A DNA stretch of 36,894 nt from a virus. Made by a program: the position numbers and the translations under genes. This document shows positions 22,788-36,894 of the stretch, piece by piece; the stretch's first letter is position 1; each line of letters opens with the position of its first letter. The stretch is from IMG/VR virus record IMGVR_UViG_3300015261_000166, positions 1 through 36,894 of that record. The stretch is one strand, 5' to 3'. The notes under the pieces are model-generated. The model searched no databases. It worked only from the letters and a program-made list of their open reading frames with translations, and was not told the origin of the DNA.

Positions 22788-23396
22788 ATGATGATGATTT
22801 TAGGAATGTTCGTGTTTAGCCTGCCGACGCTGGCGTATCACGAGCTGCAGCGGCAAACGGACTGGAAGCACGCCAGCACGGCCCGCGTGGGCCTGCGCGA
22901 CGCGCACCAGTACGTGGGGCCAGGTGACGACACCATCACCCTGTCCGGCTGGGTGGCGCCGGAACTGACCGGCTCCCTGTATTCGCTCGATGCCCTGCGC
23001 ATGATGGCCGACACGGGTAAATCGTGGATTCTGATCCAGGGCACGGGCCGCATTCTCGGCTCCTACCGCATCACCAGCATGACCGAGGGCCGCACCATTC
23101 TGGACGGCAGCGGCGGCGCGCGGCGCGTCGAGTTTTCGATTGCGCTCAAGCGCGACGACGACGGCGTGCTGGCCATGGTCGGCCTGGGCGACATCGGCGA
23201 CCTGAAAAACATGCTCAGTATCGACGGCATGACCAGCAGCATCGCCGGCGCGGCCAAGAATGCCGTGGGCAGCGTGGTGGGCAATGTGGTCGGCGGCATC
23301 ACATCGAAATACGGCGGCGTGGTCAGCGAGATGAAAGACAAGATCGGCGGCAGCATCAGCGGCGCCATCGGCAGCGCGGCGGACAAATTCAAATGA
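22788..23396 (+). CDS. U: Tail protein U (P2 gpU family)
   Basis: 202 residues (P2 gpU: 159). Tail terminator/completion protein in the T-U-D block. MFVFSLPTLAYHELQRQTDWKHAST and ALRMMADTGKSWILIQGTGRILGSYRI are family blocks. The additional 45 residues at the C-terminus are low-complexity Gly/Ala/Ser (AKNAVGSVVGNVVGGITSK, then SISGAIGSAADKFK). Three ATGs in a row (22788, 22791, 22794) are possible starts. Overlaps gpD (ATGA). Confidence 0.93.
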   Translation: MMMILGMFVFSLPTLAYHELQRQTDWKHASTARVGLRDAHQYVGPGDDTITLSGWVAPELTGSLYSLDALRMMADTGKSWILIQGTGRILGSYRITSMTEGRTILDGSGGARRVEFSIALKRDDDGVLAMVGLGDIGDLKNMLSIDGMTSSIAGAAKNAVGSVVGNVVGGITSKYGGVVSEMKDKIGGSISGAIGSAADKFK

Positions 23397-24664
23397 GCGA
23401 GCATATCCCCGCCTTCAAGGTCAGCATCGAGGACAAGGATTTGACCGCCATCGTCTCGCCGCGGCTGATCAATTTGACGTTGACCTTGTGCCGTGGCGAC
23501 GAGAGCGACCAGCTCGATATCTCGCTCGATGACAGCGACGGCAAGCTGGCCATGCCGCCGCGCGGCGCGCAGATCGCCCTGGCGCTGGGCTGGCAAGCGT
23601 CCGGCCTGGTGGATATGGGCAAGTTCACCGTCGACGAGGTGGAGCACAGCGGCGCGCCCGACACCATCACCCTGCGCGCCAGGTCGGCCAACCTGATCGA
23701 CACGTTTAAACAGCAGCAGGAACACAGCTTTCACAAGACCACCCTGGGCGCCATCATCGAGGCGATTGCCTTCCGCAACGAGCTGGCGTCGGGCGTGTCG
23801 GCGCGCCTGCGCGACACGGCAATCGAGCACATCGACCAGACCCACGAGAGCGATGCCGCTTTCCTGCGCCGACTGGGCAGGAAATACGACGCCGTGGCCA
23901 CCGTCAAGAATGACACCCTGCTATTCATCCCCATCAACCAGAGCCGCACCGCCAGCGGCAAGGCGCTGCCCGTCACTCCCATCACGCGCGCCCTGGGCGA
24001 TGGCCACCGCTACCACAGCGCCGAAAGCGACGCCTACACGGGCGTGCGCGCCTTCTGGCACGACGAGCGCTACGCGCGCCGCCGCAGCGTCGTGGCCGGC
24101 GTGCCCGGCAACAGCAAGCGCCTGCGCACCACCTTCGCCAATGAAACGGACGCGCGCGCGGCGGCCGTGGCCGAATGGCAGCGCATCTTGCGTGGCCTGG
24201 CCAGCTTTGAAATGAGCCTGGCCCTGGGCAACCCGGCCGTGTTCCCGCAATCACCCGTCACGGTGCAAGGGTTCAAGCCCGAGATTGACGCCACCGAGTG
24301 GCTATCGGTCAAGGTCACGCACAGCCTGGGCGGCAATGGATTTACCACGCGCGTGGAATTTGAAACGAAAACGGAAGCGGTCGAGGCCGAGCGCGAGGAC
24401 GAGAAAGACCCGGACGAAGGCATCACGGGCGTGGTGGCCAAGTGGAAGGATGTGGCAAGGAAAAAGAAACAGACAGGACAGGAAATGGCAGGATCAGTGG
24501 GTAATCTCAAAACGTTGGAGCACCTCTATACGACCAAGCAGAATGCAGAAAGCGCCGTCAAAAAGGCATGGAACCGCATTATGGAAGTACGCGATATCAT
24601 CCGTGAAAACAGTGAGGAACCTTGGACACCTGCTCAAGCAGCAGCCGCAGCAGAAGCAACATGA
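23393..24664 (+). CDS. D: Tail protein D (P2 gpD family), extended C-terminus
   Basis: 423 residues (P2 gpD: 387). gp27-like hub of the baseplate. The family start (PAFKVSIEDKDLTAIVSPRLINLTLTLCRGDESDQLDISLDD) and the AFLRRLGRKYDAVATVKNDTLLFIP block are clear. The last ~75 residues (from about KKKQTGQEMAGSVGN) are a helical tail in less GC-biased codons and look added or replaced. Unlike P2, no ogr gene follows; an Ogr-like gene lies instead in the early region at 30148. Confidence 0.93.
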   Translation: MSEHIPAFKVSIEDKDLTAIVSPRLINLTLTLCRGDESDQLDISLDDSDGKLAMPPRGAQIALALGWQASGLVDMGKFTVDEVEHSGAPDTITLRARSANLIDTFKQQQEHSFHKTTLGAIIEAIAFRNELASGVSARLRDTAIEHIDQTHESDAAFLRRLGRKYDAVATVKNDTLLFIPINQSRTASGKALPVTPITRALGDGHRYHSAESDAYTGVRAFWHDERYARRRSVVAGVPGNSKRLRTTFANETDARAAAVAEWQRILRGLASFEMSLALGNPAVFPQSPVTVQGFKPEIDATEWLSVKVTHSLGGNGFTTRVEFETKTEAVEAEREDEKDPDEGITGVVAKWKDVARKKKQTGQEMAGSVGNLKTLEHLYTTKQNAESAVKKAWNRIMEVRDIIRENSEEPWTPAQAAAAAEAT

Positions 24665-24762: not shown

Positions 24763-25728
24763 CTAATATCGTCGTATATCGAGCTCACCTTTCCGATTGT
24801 TGAGAGCGTAGTGAACTTCGCAGCTCACTCGGTAGTGCGAGAAGAACTTATTAAAGGATTTGTGCAAATCATTTGCCCATGCAAGTCGATTCGCATCTCT
24901 ATCGAAAAAATTACGAATCTCTGCGGAGTTTTCACGGAGATGAAATACACTGTTTCTGAATTTCCTAATTGAATCAGAATGAGATTTAATAATTTTTCCC
25001 AGCTCATTAGACAGTGGAAGTATTTCTTTGAAACGATCTGGACGATCGTTCATTAGTATATTTCGCACATTTAAACTTTTAGTGAAAGCCTCACAAATGA
25101 CGCCTAAGTATCCGAGCCATGAGAAAAAATAGATCCGAATCTGAACTTCATCGTTACGACTTAATTTACCGAACTTATCCCATTTTCGGTCAAGCTTTTG
25201 ATAATTTTTTAACATCAAATCAGCTGCAAGAAAATAATGGGTGTATAGCGTCAGAACTTGATCTGCATTTGCGCTTGGCAGCTTATCTCCTGGCAGCCTG
25301 GAATCAATATCCAAAGCCAGTTGACGCGTGCCTCTTGCCAAATAATAGAGCCCTCTATCCAATTGAATGAACTCTCCAGACACCGCGGCAGCATTGAATA
25401 CTTGTTCGATTGCGTCTGATGTTTTAAGCTCATAGTCTATGCACCCGTCCGCTGCAAACTGAGTTAGCTTCCAGAGATCGAAGCCATCGATTTCACCCTT
25501 TTCTCCAAAATCGAAGTCGACCGGACTAGTCTTGAACAAAACTTTACAGCCAGCTCCATGCTTGTAGTAGGGAACGCCATCATTGAGAATCCCCCTGCTC
25601 GGAATATCTGTTTGAATCCATTCAAATGCACTATGCGGCATTTTAATTCCCGAGCGGTACATTAAAATCACTGCACACCTGACAGTCGCTTGATAGTCGA
25701 CAATTATGCGCCGAAGTTCTTTATCCAT
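24763..25728 (-). CDS. DUF6896-like plus HEPN-like two-domain protein
   Basis: 321 residues from ATG 25728; a TTG at 25764 would add 12. Residues about 5-95 resemble DUF6896 (DGVPYYKHGAGCKV, VDFDFGEKGEIDGFDLWKL). Residues about 120-300 are all helical and contain RKFRNSVFH, in which Arg258-x4-His263 matches the R-x4-6-H motif of HEPN ribonucleases, within a typical long-helix context. AT-rich, convergent with gpD, and in the position behind the late operon where P2-like phages carry variable cargo. A toxin or defence RNase role is inference; the DUF6896 assignment is from memory of the family. Confidence 0.75.
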   Translation of the reverse strand: MDKELRRIIVDYQATVRCAVILMYRSGIKMPHSAFEWIQTDIPSRGILNDGVPYYKHGAGCKVLFKTSPVDFDFGEKGEIDGFDLWKLTQFAADGCIDYELKTSDAIEQVFNAAAVSGEFIQLDRGLYYLARGTRQLALDIDSRLPGDKLPSANADQVLTLYTHYFLAADLMLKNYQKLDRKWDKFGKLSRNDEVQIRIYFFSWLGYLGVICEAFTKSLNVRNILMNDRPDRFKEILPLSNELGKIIKSHSDSIRKFRNSVFHLRENSAEIRNFFDRDANRLAWANDLHKSFNKFFSHYRVSCEVHYALNNRKGELDIRRY

Positions 25729-25891
25729 TAATTTACGATATTTAAAACTGTCGCTGCAGTACAAAAAAGTAGTTTTGGCCGCTTGATTGAACGAAATTCG
25801 TATCTACTGCCAACCAAGTCCCATCAATATTCGTAAATGGAAAACATACGATTTTACGAATGAACCAAGCAAGATTAATGATTTTCTCTTT

Positions 25892-25923
25892 CAACGGTTG
25901 AGGGTCACAACGGTTGAGGGTCA
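25892..25923. repeat. 16-bp tandem duplication
   Basis: CAACGGTTGAGGGTCA occurs twice head to tail (25892-25907 and 25908-25923). The second copy runs into the left inverted end of the element at 25918, so this may be a scar of its insertion or a duplicated end. Confidence 0.8.
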
Positions 25924-26104
25924 GGTCTGCCATTCCGACACAGGCCCAGCTGTGCGCCCCCAAGCTGAAGTCGCTGCGTAAACTGGGCGTCAATACGCAT
26001 AAGCAGCATAGTTAATCGAGCCGTATTGACAATTAATGCATCACCATTTTCTGTGGGTCTAGACGCCAAGGCTGCAGATCGTGTCCGAATGGCAGACCTG
26101 ACCC
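25918..26104. mobile_element. MITE-like element, copy A
   Basis: About 187 bp with 23-bp inverted ends: 25919-25941 and the reverse complement of 26081-26103 agree at 22 of 23 bases, beginning GGTCAGGTCTGCCATTC. It contains no gene. A near full-length copy (C) lies at 27925-28112 in the same orientation and a partial copy (B) follows directly. Inverted ends, constant length and repeated occurrence fit a non-autonomous element moved by a transposase elsewhere. No clear target duplication is seen. Confidence 0.75.
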
Positions 26105-26112
26105 CGCCACCG

Positions 26113-26202
26113 TAATTAGTCGAGCCATATTGACAATTAATGCAACATTGTTTCCTTTAAGTATAGACGCTAAGGTCAGAGATCGTGTCTGAATGGCAGA
26201 CC
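26113..26202. mobile_element. MITE-like element, partial copy B
   Basis: Corresponds to the right half of copy A: the segment TATTGACAATTAATGCA recurs (with one A/G change before it), followed by a diverged middle and GATCGTGTCTGAATGGCAGACC. The left half is missing, so this is a truncated tandem copy. The remaining bases to 26265 are AT-rich with no evident gene. Confidence 0.7.
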
Positions 26203-26265
26203 GTGTGCGCACAATTAAATTTAAAACATATCTTCAACGATGAGCTATGAATTCATTTCCATATC

Positions 26266-27255
26266 TTATCTAAATAGCTCTTGCACTTTCCCGGTTGCAG
26301 CATAATCAGCAAGTCCCTTAAGTCGCCGATAGTAGGCTAGCATAATCTTCACGGCCCCAAGTGGATCGGCGCTCGCCAGATCAAGAATATCATTCGAGCG
26401 ACTAGCCAAACCAAGAACCGAACAAAGCTTCTCTAACTTAACGGTCAAGTCTTTATTATCCTGAGTAGTTAAACGCAAATCTGCCTGTGCCTTACTAAGC
26501 CAAGTTTTATCGCGCAACCACTTATACACTTCATCGTAAATTATCGTGGCAGGTGAGTCAGCCTTATTTATCTCATCAACTATTTTCCCGATAGAGCTTG
26601 CAACCGATTTATTCATTCCAAATTCGATAACACCTGGGGACGCATACTGTATCCGACGAATCTCGACTCTATCTGCACTTGGTATTTTCAAGTATAAATC
26701 ATCGAAAAAATTAACAGAACTAAAGCCACCGCGCCATGGATAGCGTTGAAATAAGCTACCTATCCGTTGCCTTACTGACGAAGTTCCCTTTCCCGATAAC
26801 GCGTACATAATTGCATAACTATCCTGCACCAAATCCGAGAATTTTCGCATATCTTCGATGCCCCAACGACCGTCAATATGCACTGCATTGATATTATTAT
26901 CTTTGTTTATAGATATCGGTTTCTCGACAGGAATAAACATACCGGGTTTTGGTAAAATTCTCTCATCAACACTATCTTTAGATTGAGTCTTTACTGCATT
27001 ACCCACCTCACCCCAAAATTCTGCAAACTCAAACTTCCCTTGTGCTCTATGTGTAATCAGATAACGCACATCGACTTTTGCCTGAGACAATTTCTCTAAA
27101 TCGTCTTCCTTTACCCTGGCAAAGTAAAAAAGATACGAATCCTCTCCATCCTCATAATTAACGCCAATGTAATGTCTTTTACGCCCATCAATTGCAATAA
27201 CAACAAGAGGGACCTCGTATGCCAATAAAACCTTAGAAACTGTTAGATTTGCCAT
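26266..27255 (-). CDS. Unknown protein, second gene of MITE-flanked operon (DUF6575-like N-terminus)
   Basis: 329 residues. Residues about 5-75 (VLLAYEVPLVVIAIDG, YLFYFARVKEDDLEKLSQAKVDVRYLIT) resemble the DUF6575 family pattern as I remember it; confidence in that name is low. A middle domain (about 125-225) and a helical C-terminus (about 225-329, DLRLTTQDNKDLTVKLEKLC then MLAYYRRLKGLADYA) follow. No catalytic motif was recognised. Start overlaps the stop of the 128-residue gene (TAATG), so the two are translationally coupled. AT-rich codons mark it as foreign to the phage backbone. Confidence 0.7.
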   Translation of the reverse strand: MANLTVSKVLLAYEVPLVVIAIDGRKRHYIGVNYEDGEDSYLFYFARVKEDDLEKLSQAKVDVRYLITHRAQGKFEFAEFWGEVGNAVKTQSKDSVDERILPKPGMFIPVEKPISINKDNNINAVHIDGRWGIEDMRKFSDLVQDSYAIMYALSGKGTSSVRQRIGSLFQRYPWRGGFSSVNFFDDLYLKIPSADRVEIRRIQYASPGVIEFGMNKSVASSIGKIVDEINKADSPATIIYDEVYKWLRDKTWLSKAQADLRLTTQDNKDLTVKLEKLCSVLGLASRSNDILDLASADPLGAVKIMLAYYRRLKGLADYAATGKVQELFR

Positions 27256-27641
27256 TAAAGTTTCGCCGCTTGACCGACCACAACATTTAACGGATCGCTG
27301 GCTTTATAAGGCCACCAATGAACATGGGTTGGTTTATCCTTGTGCCAAACTCCCGTAGTAGGATCATGCAAAACCTGAACAGCATGGGTAAATTTTGGCA
27401 TACGCGGTGATTTCACTAATGCGCGACATACTTCAAGAGACGTGGTAAGCGATACTGAACGAGCACCACACTGATCATAAAAATTCCTAGTTGGCTGTTT
27501 CTTATATTGCGAATCAAAATCATCATCTTTTACCGTATTGGAAAATAACAATCGCCACAGAATCGGCTCATCAGGGACATTAGGATCTATTGGCGGACAA
27601 CTAGTAGGCAGGGATTCTCTATAGGTCATTTTTTTAATCAT
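27255..27641 (-). CDS. Unknown small protein, first gene of MITE-flanked operon
   Basis: 128 residues from ATG 27641 (ATG 27629 is an alternative); neither has a strong ribosome site. Visible features are a proline-rich start (PTSCPPIDPNVPDEPILWRLLFSN) and conserved-looking polar segments (QPTRNFYDQCGARSVSLTTSLEVC; then FTHAVQVLHDP and HVHWWPYKASDPLNVV). It is not recognised. The order small protein then larger partner, with one-base coupling, is reminiscent of two-component toxin-antitoxin or defence modules, but that is inference. The promoter must lie in the 280-bp AT-rich gap up to 27924, where no gene is convincing. Confidence 0.7.
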   Translation of the reverse strand: MIKKMTYRESLPTSCPPIDPNVPDEPILWRLLFSNTVKDDDFDSQYKKQPTRNFYDQCGARSVSLTTSLEVCRALVKSPRMPKFTHAVQVLHDPTTGVWHKDKPTHVHWWPYKASDPLNVVVGQAAKL

Positions 27642-27924
27642 TTTATTGAATTAAAATCCATTAACGAATTTCGCCATGGACACTCATAATTTCCCGCTTG
27701 AGAGTAACAAATTATCGAATGAGAAAATTCACACATTGTCACAACTGCGTAGATATTAATTTAAAATGAAAAGGTAATTGAAGATTCTATGTAGCATTTG
27801 GCAACATCAGTGATTAGCACAGACGTAGCTGAATTTTAGGTCAACCGCACCGTGACCCAGATCGCAGTAGCATTGCTGGACGGTGAACATTCATACCTAA
27901 TCCCTGGCGCTGTTTCGGGTTTGA

Positions 27925-28112
27925 GGGTCAGGTCTGCCATTCCGACACAGGCCCAGCTATGTGAATCCCCAATCTGAACTCTCAGCGTAAGCTCAGCATC
28001 AATACGCATTCGCAGCATAGTGATTCGTTCCGTATTGACAATTGGTACCTCTCAATTTGCTGTGAGTCTAAACGCCAAGGTTGAGATCGTGTCTGAATAG
28101 CAGACCTGCCCC
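27925..28112. mobile_element. MITE-like element, copy C
   Basis: About 188 bp, same orientation and length as copy A. The left end GGGTCAGGTCTGCCATTC is identical; the right end ATCGTGTCTGAATAGCAG then ACCTGCCCCC has two changes from A. The interior shares TATTGACAATT and the AAACGCCAAGGTTGAGATC stretch. It ends 9 bp from the stop of the WYL-BRCT gene. Copies A/B and C bracket the two-gene unknown operon. Confidence 0.75.
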
Positions 28113-28121
28113 CGCCATCGA

Positions 28122-28976
28122 TCAGCTTTCCGCAATTCGTTTTATAAAATCAGACTCCGAAATAACATCAATCCCCATCGATTCTGCTTTGCTCAGTTGC
28201 ACGCTCCCAGCGAGCGGGCCAGCGATCAAAACATCCAGGGAAACGCTAAACCCTCCGCGTACCTGCCAACCGGCCGCCCTCGCCATTGACTCCAATCCAC
28301 AGCGCTTAGTATCACGAAAACCTACAAAATATGCCGCAGTCTGCCACTGCTTTTGATTGGCCCTGCCCACTGGGTAGACATTGATGCCTACTGGACGATG
28401 GGAGGCCCCATCAGTAACGATTCTGTTGTTGGGAAGGAGGCGCATCGCACTCGCCCACTTCCCGAGACGTTGAACCTCTCCTGTCCTGAGCGAAGTCACC
28501 TTGCCACGAATACGCCGCAAAGAAAAAGTTCGTTTTCCTTGCCTTGCATGGCAATAACCTTCCAGATAATCCGCATCAACTGCCCACACTGAGACTTGCC
28601 GAGTTACATAGCCCAAACCGTCTCGCATCGGATACGAAAATTGAATTTCGTCGACATCTCCTGCTTCGCCTCGTGGCCCTCTCTTCGACTTTCTCTTTGC
28701 GCGTGATAGAACTTGAACAGGTTGCACCTCAACTGCGACTTGCTTGAGTTGTGGAATATTCTCACTCGCCGAAGGAACTTTTGGCGGAGCTGCAATTCGC
28801 TCGGTTAGACATGGAGGCTTTCTCACCTTTACGTTTGATATGCATAGTTGAATATGTCGCCAAAGCGAGGCACCCGGCTCGCCAGCGTCAATCGCTCGCT
28901 TCCGAGGATTCCAGCTGCTGAAAATTATGCAGAGCAAACAAGCAGCAATTACAATAAGCATAAGAAGGTGAATCAT
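28122..28976 (-). CDS. Membrane-anchored WYL-BRCT protein
   Basis: 284 residues from ATG 28976. One N-terminal membrane segment (about residues 3-21, LLMLIVIAACLLCIIF) is followed by a basic linker (RAKRKSKRGPRG, about 92-103). A WYL-like domain lies at about 110-180 (IQFSYPMRDGLGYVTRQVSVW, YLEGYCHARQGKRTFSLRRI), then a BRCT domain at about 214-284 (YFVGFRDTKRCGLESMARAAGW, LIAGPLAGSVQLSKAESMGI). WYL domains sense nucleotides or nucleic-acid ligands and BRCT domains bind phosphopeptides or DNA ends. The gene starts 7 bp behind the repressor stop, so it is probably expressed in the lysogen. Function unknown; DNA-damage sensing or defence is inference. Confidence 0.8.
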   Translation of the reverse strand: MIHLLMLIVIAACLLCIIFSSWNPRKRAIDAGEPGASLWRHIQLCISNVKVRKPPCLTERIAAPPKVPSASENIPQLKQVAVEVQPVQVLSRAKRKSKRGPRGEAGDVDEIQFSYPMRDGLGYVTRQVSVWAVDADYLEGYCHARQGKRTFSLRRIRGKVTSLRTGEVQRLGKWASAMRLLPNNRIVTDGASHRPVGINVYPVGRANQKQWQTAAYFVGFRDTKRCGLESMARAAGWQVRGGFSVSLDVLIAGPLAGSVQLSKAESMGIDVISESDFIKRIAES

Positions 28977-28983
28977 TTGCAGA

Positions 28984-29427
28984 CTATTTTTCCTTTTTTC
29001 GTCCGCTGCCGGCCACATTAAAAGTCTGTGGCCCAATGATATTCCCCACGAAATTTTGCCCAATCTTGCCGTGGGTTTCAACGTGTGGTGCATTCCCTGC
29101 TTGGAATGCCGGGGGTGCTGGCGAGCGCATGCCGCTAATCATGCCAAGTACTCCTGCCTTCCCGCGAACGTCCATACTTCGATAGCCAGTCAATAGTTCA
29201 TGCTCGTCCGCAGGCAACGCAGACAGCGCATGTTCTCCTGTCAGCAAATACAACACATCTACTCCAGCCGCAGCAACGGCCGCCAAATAGTCAGAATCTG
29301 GCGTACGGGAGCCGTTTTCATAGTTGAACTGGGCTCCCTTTTTTACCCCACCAAGGGCAGCAAACTCGTCCTGATTGAGGCCGAGGCGCTTCCGTTCTTC
29401 CTTGAGACGATCAAAAAAATACTTCAT
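28984..29427 (-). CDS. Phage repressor, XRE-type helix-turn-helix
   Basis: 147 residues from ATG 29427; GTG 29454 would add nine. The N-terminal helix-turn-helix (FFDRLKEERKRLGLNQDEFAALGGVKKGAQFNYENGSRTPDSDYLAAVAAAGVDVLYLLTG, in pieces across residues 4-67) is XRE/CI-like. The C-terminal part (VGNIIGPQTFNVAGSGRKKEK) is glycine-rich and lacks a LexA-type Ser-Lys protease, so induction by RecA self-cleavage is unlikely. Divergent from the early genes across a palindromic operator, it is the probable lysogeny switch. Confidence 0.88.
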   Translation of the reverse strand: MKYFFDRLKEERKRLGLNQDEFAALGGVKKGAQFNYENGSRTPDSDYLAAVAAAGVDVLYLLTGEHALSALPADEHELLTGYRSMDVRGKAGVLGMISGMRSPAPPAFQAGNAPHVETHGKIGQNFVGNIIGPQTFNVAGSGRKKEK

Positions 29428-29449
29428 TTGAGTACAAATACCTTTCCAA

Positions 29450-29467
29450 ATCACTCAAATGAGTGAT
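29450..29467. promoter_or_regulatory. Operator palindrome between repressor and early genes
   Basis: ATCACTCA-AA-TGAGTGAT is a perfect inverted repeat with a 2-bp centre, placed 23 bp upstream of the repressor start and 41 bp upstream of the first early gene. A related TTGAGTACAA motif at 29429-29438 may be a second weaker site. Both are likely targets of the repressor. Confidence 0.75.
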
Positions 29468-33344: not shown

Positions 33345-33577
33345 ACACCCTGACCAATTCGCCGCGGCAAATCGCCCTGGGCGACCGCGTGACATTCGAT
33401 ACCGACGAAGGCTACCAGGCCGGCACCGTCAACGACCTGCGCCGGGACGTGGGCAATGGCGAGCTGCATGCGTGGGTGGAGCTGGACCACCAGTGGCCGG
33501 GCATGTTCCGGGCCGTGCCGCTGGGCGCCATCGAGGCGGTCAAGAAGGCAACCGCGCCCGTCGGGTATCAAGCATGA
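33338..33577 (+). CDS. Small hypothetical protein
   Basis: 79 residues with AAGGAG before ATG 33338. IALGDRVTFDTDEGYQAGTVNDLRRDVGNGELHAWVELDHQWPGMFRAVPLGAI is beta-rich and resembles small SH3-like barrels. Function unknown. Its stop overlaps the start of the PP-loop gene (ATGA). Confidence 0.72.
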   Translation: MLNTLTNSPRQIALGDRVTFDTDEGYQAGTVNDLRRDVGNGELHAWVELDHQWPGMFRAVPLGAIEAVKKATAPVGYQA

Positions 33578-34440
33578 CAGTTAGCCGCATGACTAGCCCA
33601 TTCCTGTTCGATGGCCCTGGCGTCATTTCGTTCAGCGGCGGCCGCACCAGCGGCATGATGCTGTGGATGACGATTCAGGCCTACGGCGGCACGCTGCCGG
33701 CTGACGTGGTGGTGTGCTTCGCCAACACCGGGAAGGAGGAGGAAGCAACCCTTGAATTCGTGCGCGACTGCGGCGACCGCTGGGGCGTTCCCATCATCTG
33801 GATAGAAAACCGTCCTCGCAATGAAGCGCGCGGTAAGGAATTTGCCATCGTGGACTTTGCAACGGCAAGCCGCAACGGCGAACCATTCGCCAATCTGCAC
33901 GACGAAAAGAAATTCCTCCCGAACCCTGTCGCGCGCTTTTGCACGGCGGAACTCAAGGTGCGCCCGATGCAGCGGTACTTGAAGTCGATAGGCCTGGTCG
34001 AGTGGACCACGTTTATCGGCATGCGCGCAGACGAACCTATGCGCGTGGCGCGGCTGACCAATCAGGACTATGGCAAGCACGAAGTGAAAGAGGCACCCTT
34101 GGCGGCGGCCGGGCTGACCGTGGCCGACGTCAGCGCGTTTTGGGCGGAACAAGGTTTTGACCTGGGCTTGCCGAACATGAGCGGCAAGACGATGCACGGC
34201 AACTGCGATCTTTGCTTCCTGAAAGGCGGCAACCAGGTGCTATCCCTGATCCGCGAAAAGCCCAGCCGGGCGCTGTGGTGGATACAGCAGGAAAAGAACA
34301 CCCAAGCGGCCGGATCGGGTGCTGGCGGCTGGTTCCGCAAGGACAGGCCCAGCTATCAGGCGATGTATGACATGGCGATGAATCACGGTGAATTGTTCCC
34401 GTTCGATGATGCGCTGACCGATTGCGGATGCACGGACTAG
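33574..34440 (+). CDS. PP-loop phosphoadenosine phosphosulfate reductase-like protein
   Basis: 288 residues from ATG 33574 (ATG 33589 also possible). The SFSGGRTSGMML block (about residues 19-30) is the ATP-binding PP-loop. A later cysteine pair in NCDLCFLKGG (about 208-219) and the terminal DCGCTD suggest a metal site. Relatives include PAPS reductases, DndC and tRNA-thiolation enzymes. The usual PAPS partner genes are absent, so it is more likely a nucleotide- or DNA-modification enzyme than a sulfate assimilation enzyme; this is inference. Such genes recur in phage early regions. Confidence 0.85.
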   Translation: MTVSRMTSPFLFDGPGVISFSGGRTSGMMLWMTIQAYGGTLPADVVVCFANTGKEEEATLEFVRDCGDRWGVPIIWIENRPRNEARGKEFAIVDFATASRNGEPFANLHDEKKFLPNPVARFCTAELKVRPMQRYLKSIGLVEWTTFIGMRADEPMRVARLTNQDYGKHEVKEAPLAAAGLTVADVSAFWAEQGFDLGLPNMSGKTMHGNCDLCFLKGGNQVLSLIREKPSRALWWIQQEKNTQAAGSGAGGWFRKDRPSYQAMYDMAMNHGELFPFDDALTDCGCTD

Positions 34441-35958: not shown

Positions 35959-36894
35959 TTAAGCACTATGCGGAATACGAACTACGCTTCGATCAAGAAG
36001 CGTAGCTTTCCCCTTTTCCGTGATGAACCAGAAAAGACCATTACTACCATTTGTAGCAGGTAGAAAATTAACACTAACCAAGCCCAGCATAATAAACTGC
36101 GCCTTAATTGATTGAAATGCTCGATGATTTATGGAAAATTGAGGCGTTGGAGAATCCATATAATCTTTTAAAATATATTCCATTCGAGTCCTTACTGATG
36201 ACTCAGGAGCATTCACCTCTAGCAATGAAGAAATACCCAAAAATATATCCCCAAATGATATCGAAATTACATCATCCAATTTTTCGCCAAATCGCGACGA
36301 TATGATGGTCACACCAATGCCAAAAATATGATCCAGACCTGCAACATTTTCAATATCAATTTTTGATATCGCACTACTTACTTGCGCAGGAATTTGTGCA
36401 CGCAAGTCTTCGTTCTCCTTGCGAAGTTCGTTTATTTCCTCCAGCAATTTGTTAGATGCCGGTGCGTCCCCTCTAACCCACCCAATCGCTGGATACATTT
36501 TAATAGTTTTTGATAGACTTAAAGAAACCAGTCCTGGCAATTCAGGTGCATCCTTCCAATACCTTACAAGCCGGTTAGTCTGCGCCTTCTCCCTGAACTT
36601 CATAAGCCTTTTCGTCAAATCGTCATTTTTATCAGTTTTACTTACGGGAATAGTATCAGGGGCATTGTGCAAGAAAGCTAAAACCTTTAAGCCTTTAGAA
36701 ACCGCATAGTCATACTCTTTTTCAGTATAGCTAACACCCTCATCAGATACTGATCCGTAACGGCCACCGATAATTAACAAGTAATAGTCACAGTCATCTA
36801 TTACTTTCTTAATAAATTCGAACTGATCTTCGTCCATAGCTGGGAATAGTTCCATCCCAGATGGTATGCAGTCCATCTCCATAAGAGTTTGCAT
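35959..36894 (-). CDS. DUF4062 domain protein, N-terminus beyond the window
   Basis: 311 residues visible. [36 protein letters not shown] and [20 protein letters not shown] are the DUF4062 signature. The family normally begins about 20-25 residues earlier with a VFVSSTY-type strand that is absent here, so the gene most likely continues past the edge and the Met at 36894 is internal. A middle coiled coil (about 147-175, [19 protein letters not shown]) and a C-terminal domain follow. AT-rich, unlike the phage backbone. DUF4062 proteins are related to TIR-like folds and occur in defence systems. Confidence 0.85.
35982..36005. other. Perfect 9-bp inverted repeat downstream of integrase
   Basis: CTACGCTTC and GAAGCGTAG flank a 6-bp loop (GATCAA), followed on the plus strand by CTTTCCCCTTTT. 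It lies 58 bp after int and within the 3' coding end of the DUF4062 gene. It could terminate int transcription; a strong T tract is lacking. Confidence 0.45.

Follow-up and report, generated by a model that had tools for sequence, protein, structure and literature searches.

The locus considered here, two genes bracketed by copies of a short repeat in a virus genome, raises the questions of what the genes encode, where the repeats came from, and whether the repeats carried the genes to their present position. The window, by which we mean the whole stretch of DNA analysed, is a single virus record of 36,894 nt (IMGVR_UViG_3300015261_000166). The original prediction saw in it a composite cassette, in which a non-autonomous element with inverted ends had moved an uncharacterised module, plausibly of a defence or toxin-antitoxin kind, into a phage accessory site. 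The explanation that we consider the best, and hold to be probable, differs from this in part; a P2-like Janthinobacterium prophage would carry a divergent PD-T4-10 abortive-infection operon in a defence hotspot between the gpD and repressor genes, flanked by independent insertions of a Y1/RAYT-derived miniature element (MITE) mobilised in trans.

The layout of the repeats was as first described. Copies A (25918..26104, plus strand, 187 bp, or about 200 bp with its conserved edges) and C (27925..28112, plus strand, 188 bp) are both full length and 83% identical (BLAST E 3.5e-50, against 1e-95 for A with itself), whilst the truncated copy B (26113..26202, plus strand), which consists only of the right half of the element (positions 92-181), starts 8 bp past the end of A; all three share one orientation around the two-gene operon. 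The inverted ends are 24 nt long, with complementarity of 96% in copy A and 88% in copy C, and since the similarity between copies continues for approximately 6-8 bp outside each of them (TTTGAG on the left, CGCCA on the right), the unit is taken to be about 200 bp. Copies A and C are short, with terminal inverted repeats and no transposase gene, as is characteristic of a MITE. A perfect 16-bp tandem duplication, CAACGGTTGAGGGTCA, is found at the left edge of copy A (25892-25923), and a CGTTTGA motif is likewise repeated at the left element edges in two other loci (L134 and L135); such repeats may have originated from the target or through slippage.

Between the copies lies exactly one operon, AT-rich as anticipated (41% GC vs 61% in the structural genes), in which the upstream gene (27255..27641, minus strand, 128 aa) and the second gene (26266..27255, minus strand, 329 aa) share one base at TAATG; their order and overlap are directly established, as are the families to which they belong. 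The 329-aa product matches the PADLOC model for PD-T4-10_B, the toxin, over its full length (PDLC04024, E 4.9e-43, residues 3-324; alignment A1). The corresponding PADLOC model for the antitoxin, PDLC04023, gave no match to the window A gene, the assignment of which therefore rests on an HMM that we built from six A-like genes preceding B-type genes (L090, L094, L095, L096, L097 and L098; alignment A2). When run against 636 open stretches, this HMM recovered the window gene at E 1.1e-21, with the runner-up at 0.47, and the A gene of L094 itself matches PDLC04023 at 7e-4. In five of these loci (L090, L094, L095, L096 and L097) the full-length B gene is directly preceded by a small gene; no such partner was seen beside the B relative in L086 or beside the short B relatives. 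In L098 (1-2258, minus strand) the sixth A-like gene is followed by a longer protein that is B-like at its N-terminus, suggesting that A pairs with differing effectors. This longer protein, which resembles PD-T4-10_B over profile positions 20-116, also bears by eye a HEIGH motif of the kind found in ImmA/IrrE-type peptidases.

The aligned B proteins are only 21-29% identical to that of the window, with invariant columns at Y147, W174, G177, S206-P207-G208 and R310-R311; those of A are C15, P16, R30, S44, C58, S64, P79 and H106. Peptide-pattern searches of the virus and genome collections returned no close B relatives, nor was another prophage with the same operon found in them, and a sequence search of solved structures gave no significant match. 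AlphaFold models of A and B made without alignments had a mean pLDDT of 34 and 42, respectively, and were unusable. Judged by their sequences, the two genes are relatives of PD-T4-10 that form a divergent branch. The module can therefore no longer be called uncharacterised, whilst the suggestion of a toxin-antitoxin or defence function has gained a family-level basis, and the known range of this toxin-antitoxin defence family now includes a divergent branch from a betaproteobacterial prophage.

PD-T4-10 was described (Vassallo et al., 2022; PMC9519451) as two genes with overlapping ORFs, a toxic B and an A that neutralises it, which together give E. coli protection from T-even phages. The window pair is alike in its overlap and in the order of A then B, with the toxin second; its B is homologous over the full length and its A is of the same family. 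However, the window A is not captured by the A model of PADLOC, and the comparison was made through the PADLOC models and not the original E. coli proteins. By analogy, B would be toxic, A would neutralise it, and this divergent member would act against phages. In the resting lysogen the antitoxin would keep the toxin in check; infection by a competing phage would disturb A or the A-B complex, and the B so freed would arrest cell growth before that phage could spread.

The operon lies, as had been proposed, in an accessory site. On the left this is bordered by a P2 gpD-like late gene (23393..24661, plus strand), conserved in related prophages and named from its position after a Pfam gpU gene, and on the right by an HTH phage repressor gene (28984..29454, minus strand; HTH_3, phage repressor families). 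Within these borders there is also a cargo gene with a DUF6896 domain (24763..25764, minus strand; Pfam PF21837, E 4.9e-27) and, on the right side, a gene with weak BRCT/WYL similarity (28122..29093, minus strand), the stop codon of which adjoins element C. The latter gene served as the query by which 13 viral contigs and eight genome loci were collected, so that the sampling was mostly independent of the element; one further locus (L132) was added through the element itself. As two of the loci are identical (L107 and L123), there are, with the window, 22 distinct hotspots.

In all 22 of these related P2-like prophages the hotspot is framed by gpD and the repressor, and hardly ever is any cargo common to two of them. 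The cargo includes Septu (PtuA/PtuB), a CBASS-like SMODS/S_4TM set, SEFIR and TIR domains, and AbiC-like genes. The site of the operon is a hypervariable defence hotspot in which the turnover of cargo is directly observed, and which is here described for the P2-like phages of Janthinobacterium. It resembles the defence hotspots known from P2-like phages (PMC9122126; PMC9519451) in being a P2-like prophage locus with a high turnover of defence genes, but differs in its position between gpD and the repressor and in belonging to a lineage of Janthinobacterium phages. In hotspot 1 of PMC9519451 the flanking genes are those for the replication endonuclease and the portal. The MITE is present in nine of the 22 hotspots, where its 13 copies all point the same way with respect to the phage, whilst the other 13 hotspots have varied cargo and no element.

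The distribution of the element was followed in 40 Janthinobacterium genomes, which yielded seven near-full-length copies (167-188 bp; 0-2 full-length copies per genome) together with many end fragments. Two of the seven (G001:C107 and G003:C22) lie in the hotspot, a proportion far above what the hotspot's share of a 6 Mb genome would lead one to expect; solitary copies are present in other genomes too. In one chromosomal case the homologous intergenic region of another genome (G027) is without the MITE, although its junction was not alignable base by base. The element was not found in the phage and plasmid records searched. The resemblance to an integron attC-like cassette, considered by eye, was dropped once the ends had been traced to a Y1 transposase element.

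Some of the end fragments flank elements of about 1 kb that contain a Y1_Tnp transposase (L076, L077 and L080), which answers the search for a copy with a transposase and agrees with the earlier view of the repeat as MITE-like and non-autonomous. In L076 an intact 289-aa transposase ORF lies between a left end, aligned over 33-36 bp, and a right end of about 105 bp that takes in the final transposase codons; the left-end alignment in L077 extends to 86 bp. The left 86 bp or so and the right 105 bp or so of the MITE are thus the two ends of a Janthinobacterium Y1 (RAYT/IS200-like) element of about 1 kb, and this derivation is seen directly. The MITE would therefore be the two ends minus approximately 0.8 kb of gene, a loss estimated from the lengths, and is best regarded as a Y1/RAYT-like transposase element reduced by internal deletion, which is presumably moved in trans by that family. 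An origin can thereby be given to a repeat that recurs in the gpD-repressor hotspot. The L077 locus (G012:C1:4574800-4578900) also contains, beside the Y1 transposase gene, a dense cluster of element ends in both orientations, similar to a REP/BIME cluster.

The closest known parallel is the REPIN, which is mobilised by a RAYT (REP-associated tyrosine transposase; PMC3116915) and shares with the window element its small size, its lack of a transposase of its own and its inverted REP-like ends, a doublet that can fold as one hairpin; the window element is, moreover, related to a Y1 transposase element. However, at about 200 bp and 0-2 full copies per genome it lacks the high copy number of REPINs, it is clearly made up of both ends of a single transposase element, and no GTAG tag was seen beside those ends. 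The partner transposase has RAYT as its closest model (NCBIfam NF047646), but its score of 70.8 bits is under the curated cut-off of 80.

A long single hairpin was predicted for both window copies, better than all 200 shuffles (DNA z-scores -4.8 and -4.0). This, together with an orientation that is constant between cassettes, might suggest a functional part of the phage, such as a terminator, small RNA or regulatory hairpin, and not a mobile remnant. We regard such a role as highly improbable, as most sister prophages do without the element, it also occurs outside prophages, searches of Rfam and for tRNAs gave no match, and each of its halves can be traced to an end of a transposase element.

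It remains to consider how the repeats came to surround the operon. Had a Y1-type enzyme worked on A's left end together with C's right end, the operon could have moved as a unit, and the shared orientation of the copies, their complete outer ends and the presence of exactly one operon between them would fit, as would a gene bracketed by element copies in another locus (L103). A prophage on the same contig as L008 argues otherwise. This locus, L102, has a single element orthologous to C, at the same place and by the same gene, but with unrelated genes to its left, and the homology with the window (1514 bp at 94%) reaches precisely to C's left edge and no further. As the identity profile between the two revealed no clear donor switch within the element, C was inherited, and the leftward cargo differs. 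Copy A is closer to the copies in L109 and L111 (87%) than it is to C, and A and C represent different branches of the element family. In addition, 16 loci with matches to the PD-T4-10_B model or by tblastn, most of them clear, had no element within 3-11 kb per locus, a second A-operon-C unit bounded by the outer ends was not found, and most sister hotspots exchange their cargo without the element. The occurrence of such genes away from the element is one of the outcomes that the original prediction had itself named as refuting it. We therefore consider the composite cassette of the original prediction very unlikely. Most likely two or three copies of the MITE inserted independently of one another, in a hotspot where cassettes are exchanged in any case; as no precise empty site for A or C was found, we infer this independent insertion.

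The exact coincidence of the end of homology with the left edge of C leaves one novel, if doubtful, role for Y1-derived MITEs, namely as portable, orientation-constrained anchors for the exchange of defence cassettes at the gpD-repressor hotspot, in which copies in the same orientation provide short blocks of homology between co-resident P2-like prophages. The element is the main sequence to recur amid otherwise unrelated cargo, with its uniform orientation across nine hotspots, and in L106 homology also breaks near its right side. However, varied cargo in the 13 hotspots without the element, and the profile of C and L102 noted above, speak against such a role; copies that are 70-90% identical over 190 bp are poor substrates for homologous recombination, and the constant orientation could instead stem from shared ancestry or from a preference of Y1 insertion for one strand. 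If true, it would provide a mechanism for the turnover of hotspot defence genes, for which only speculation was offered previously (PMC9122126).

Some further observations concern accessory positions in general. A short PD-T4-10_B relative (213 aa; L089:4986-5627) comes directly after ogrK where a P2-like prophage ends in a Salmonella record, a P2-like accessory position as in the window. A chromosomal MITE copy (L135:8088-10453) has, by eye, a RelA/SpoT-like gene on one side and a predicted membrane protein on the other, so that here too possible defence genes are nearby. Elsewhere in the window, a PAPS-reductase-like gene with similarity to SspD (33472-34440) and a DUF4062 gene beyond the integrase (35959-36894) are possible further accessory genes.
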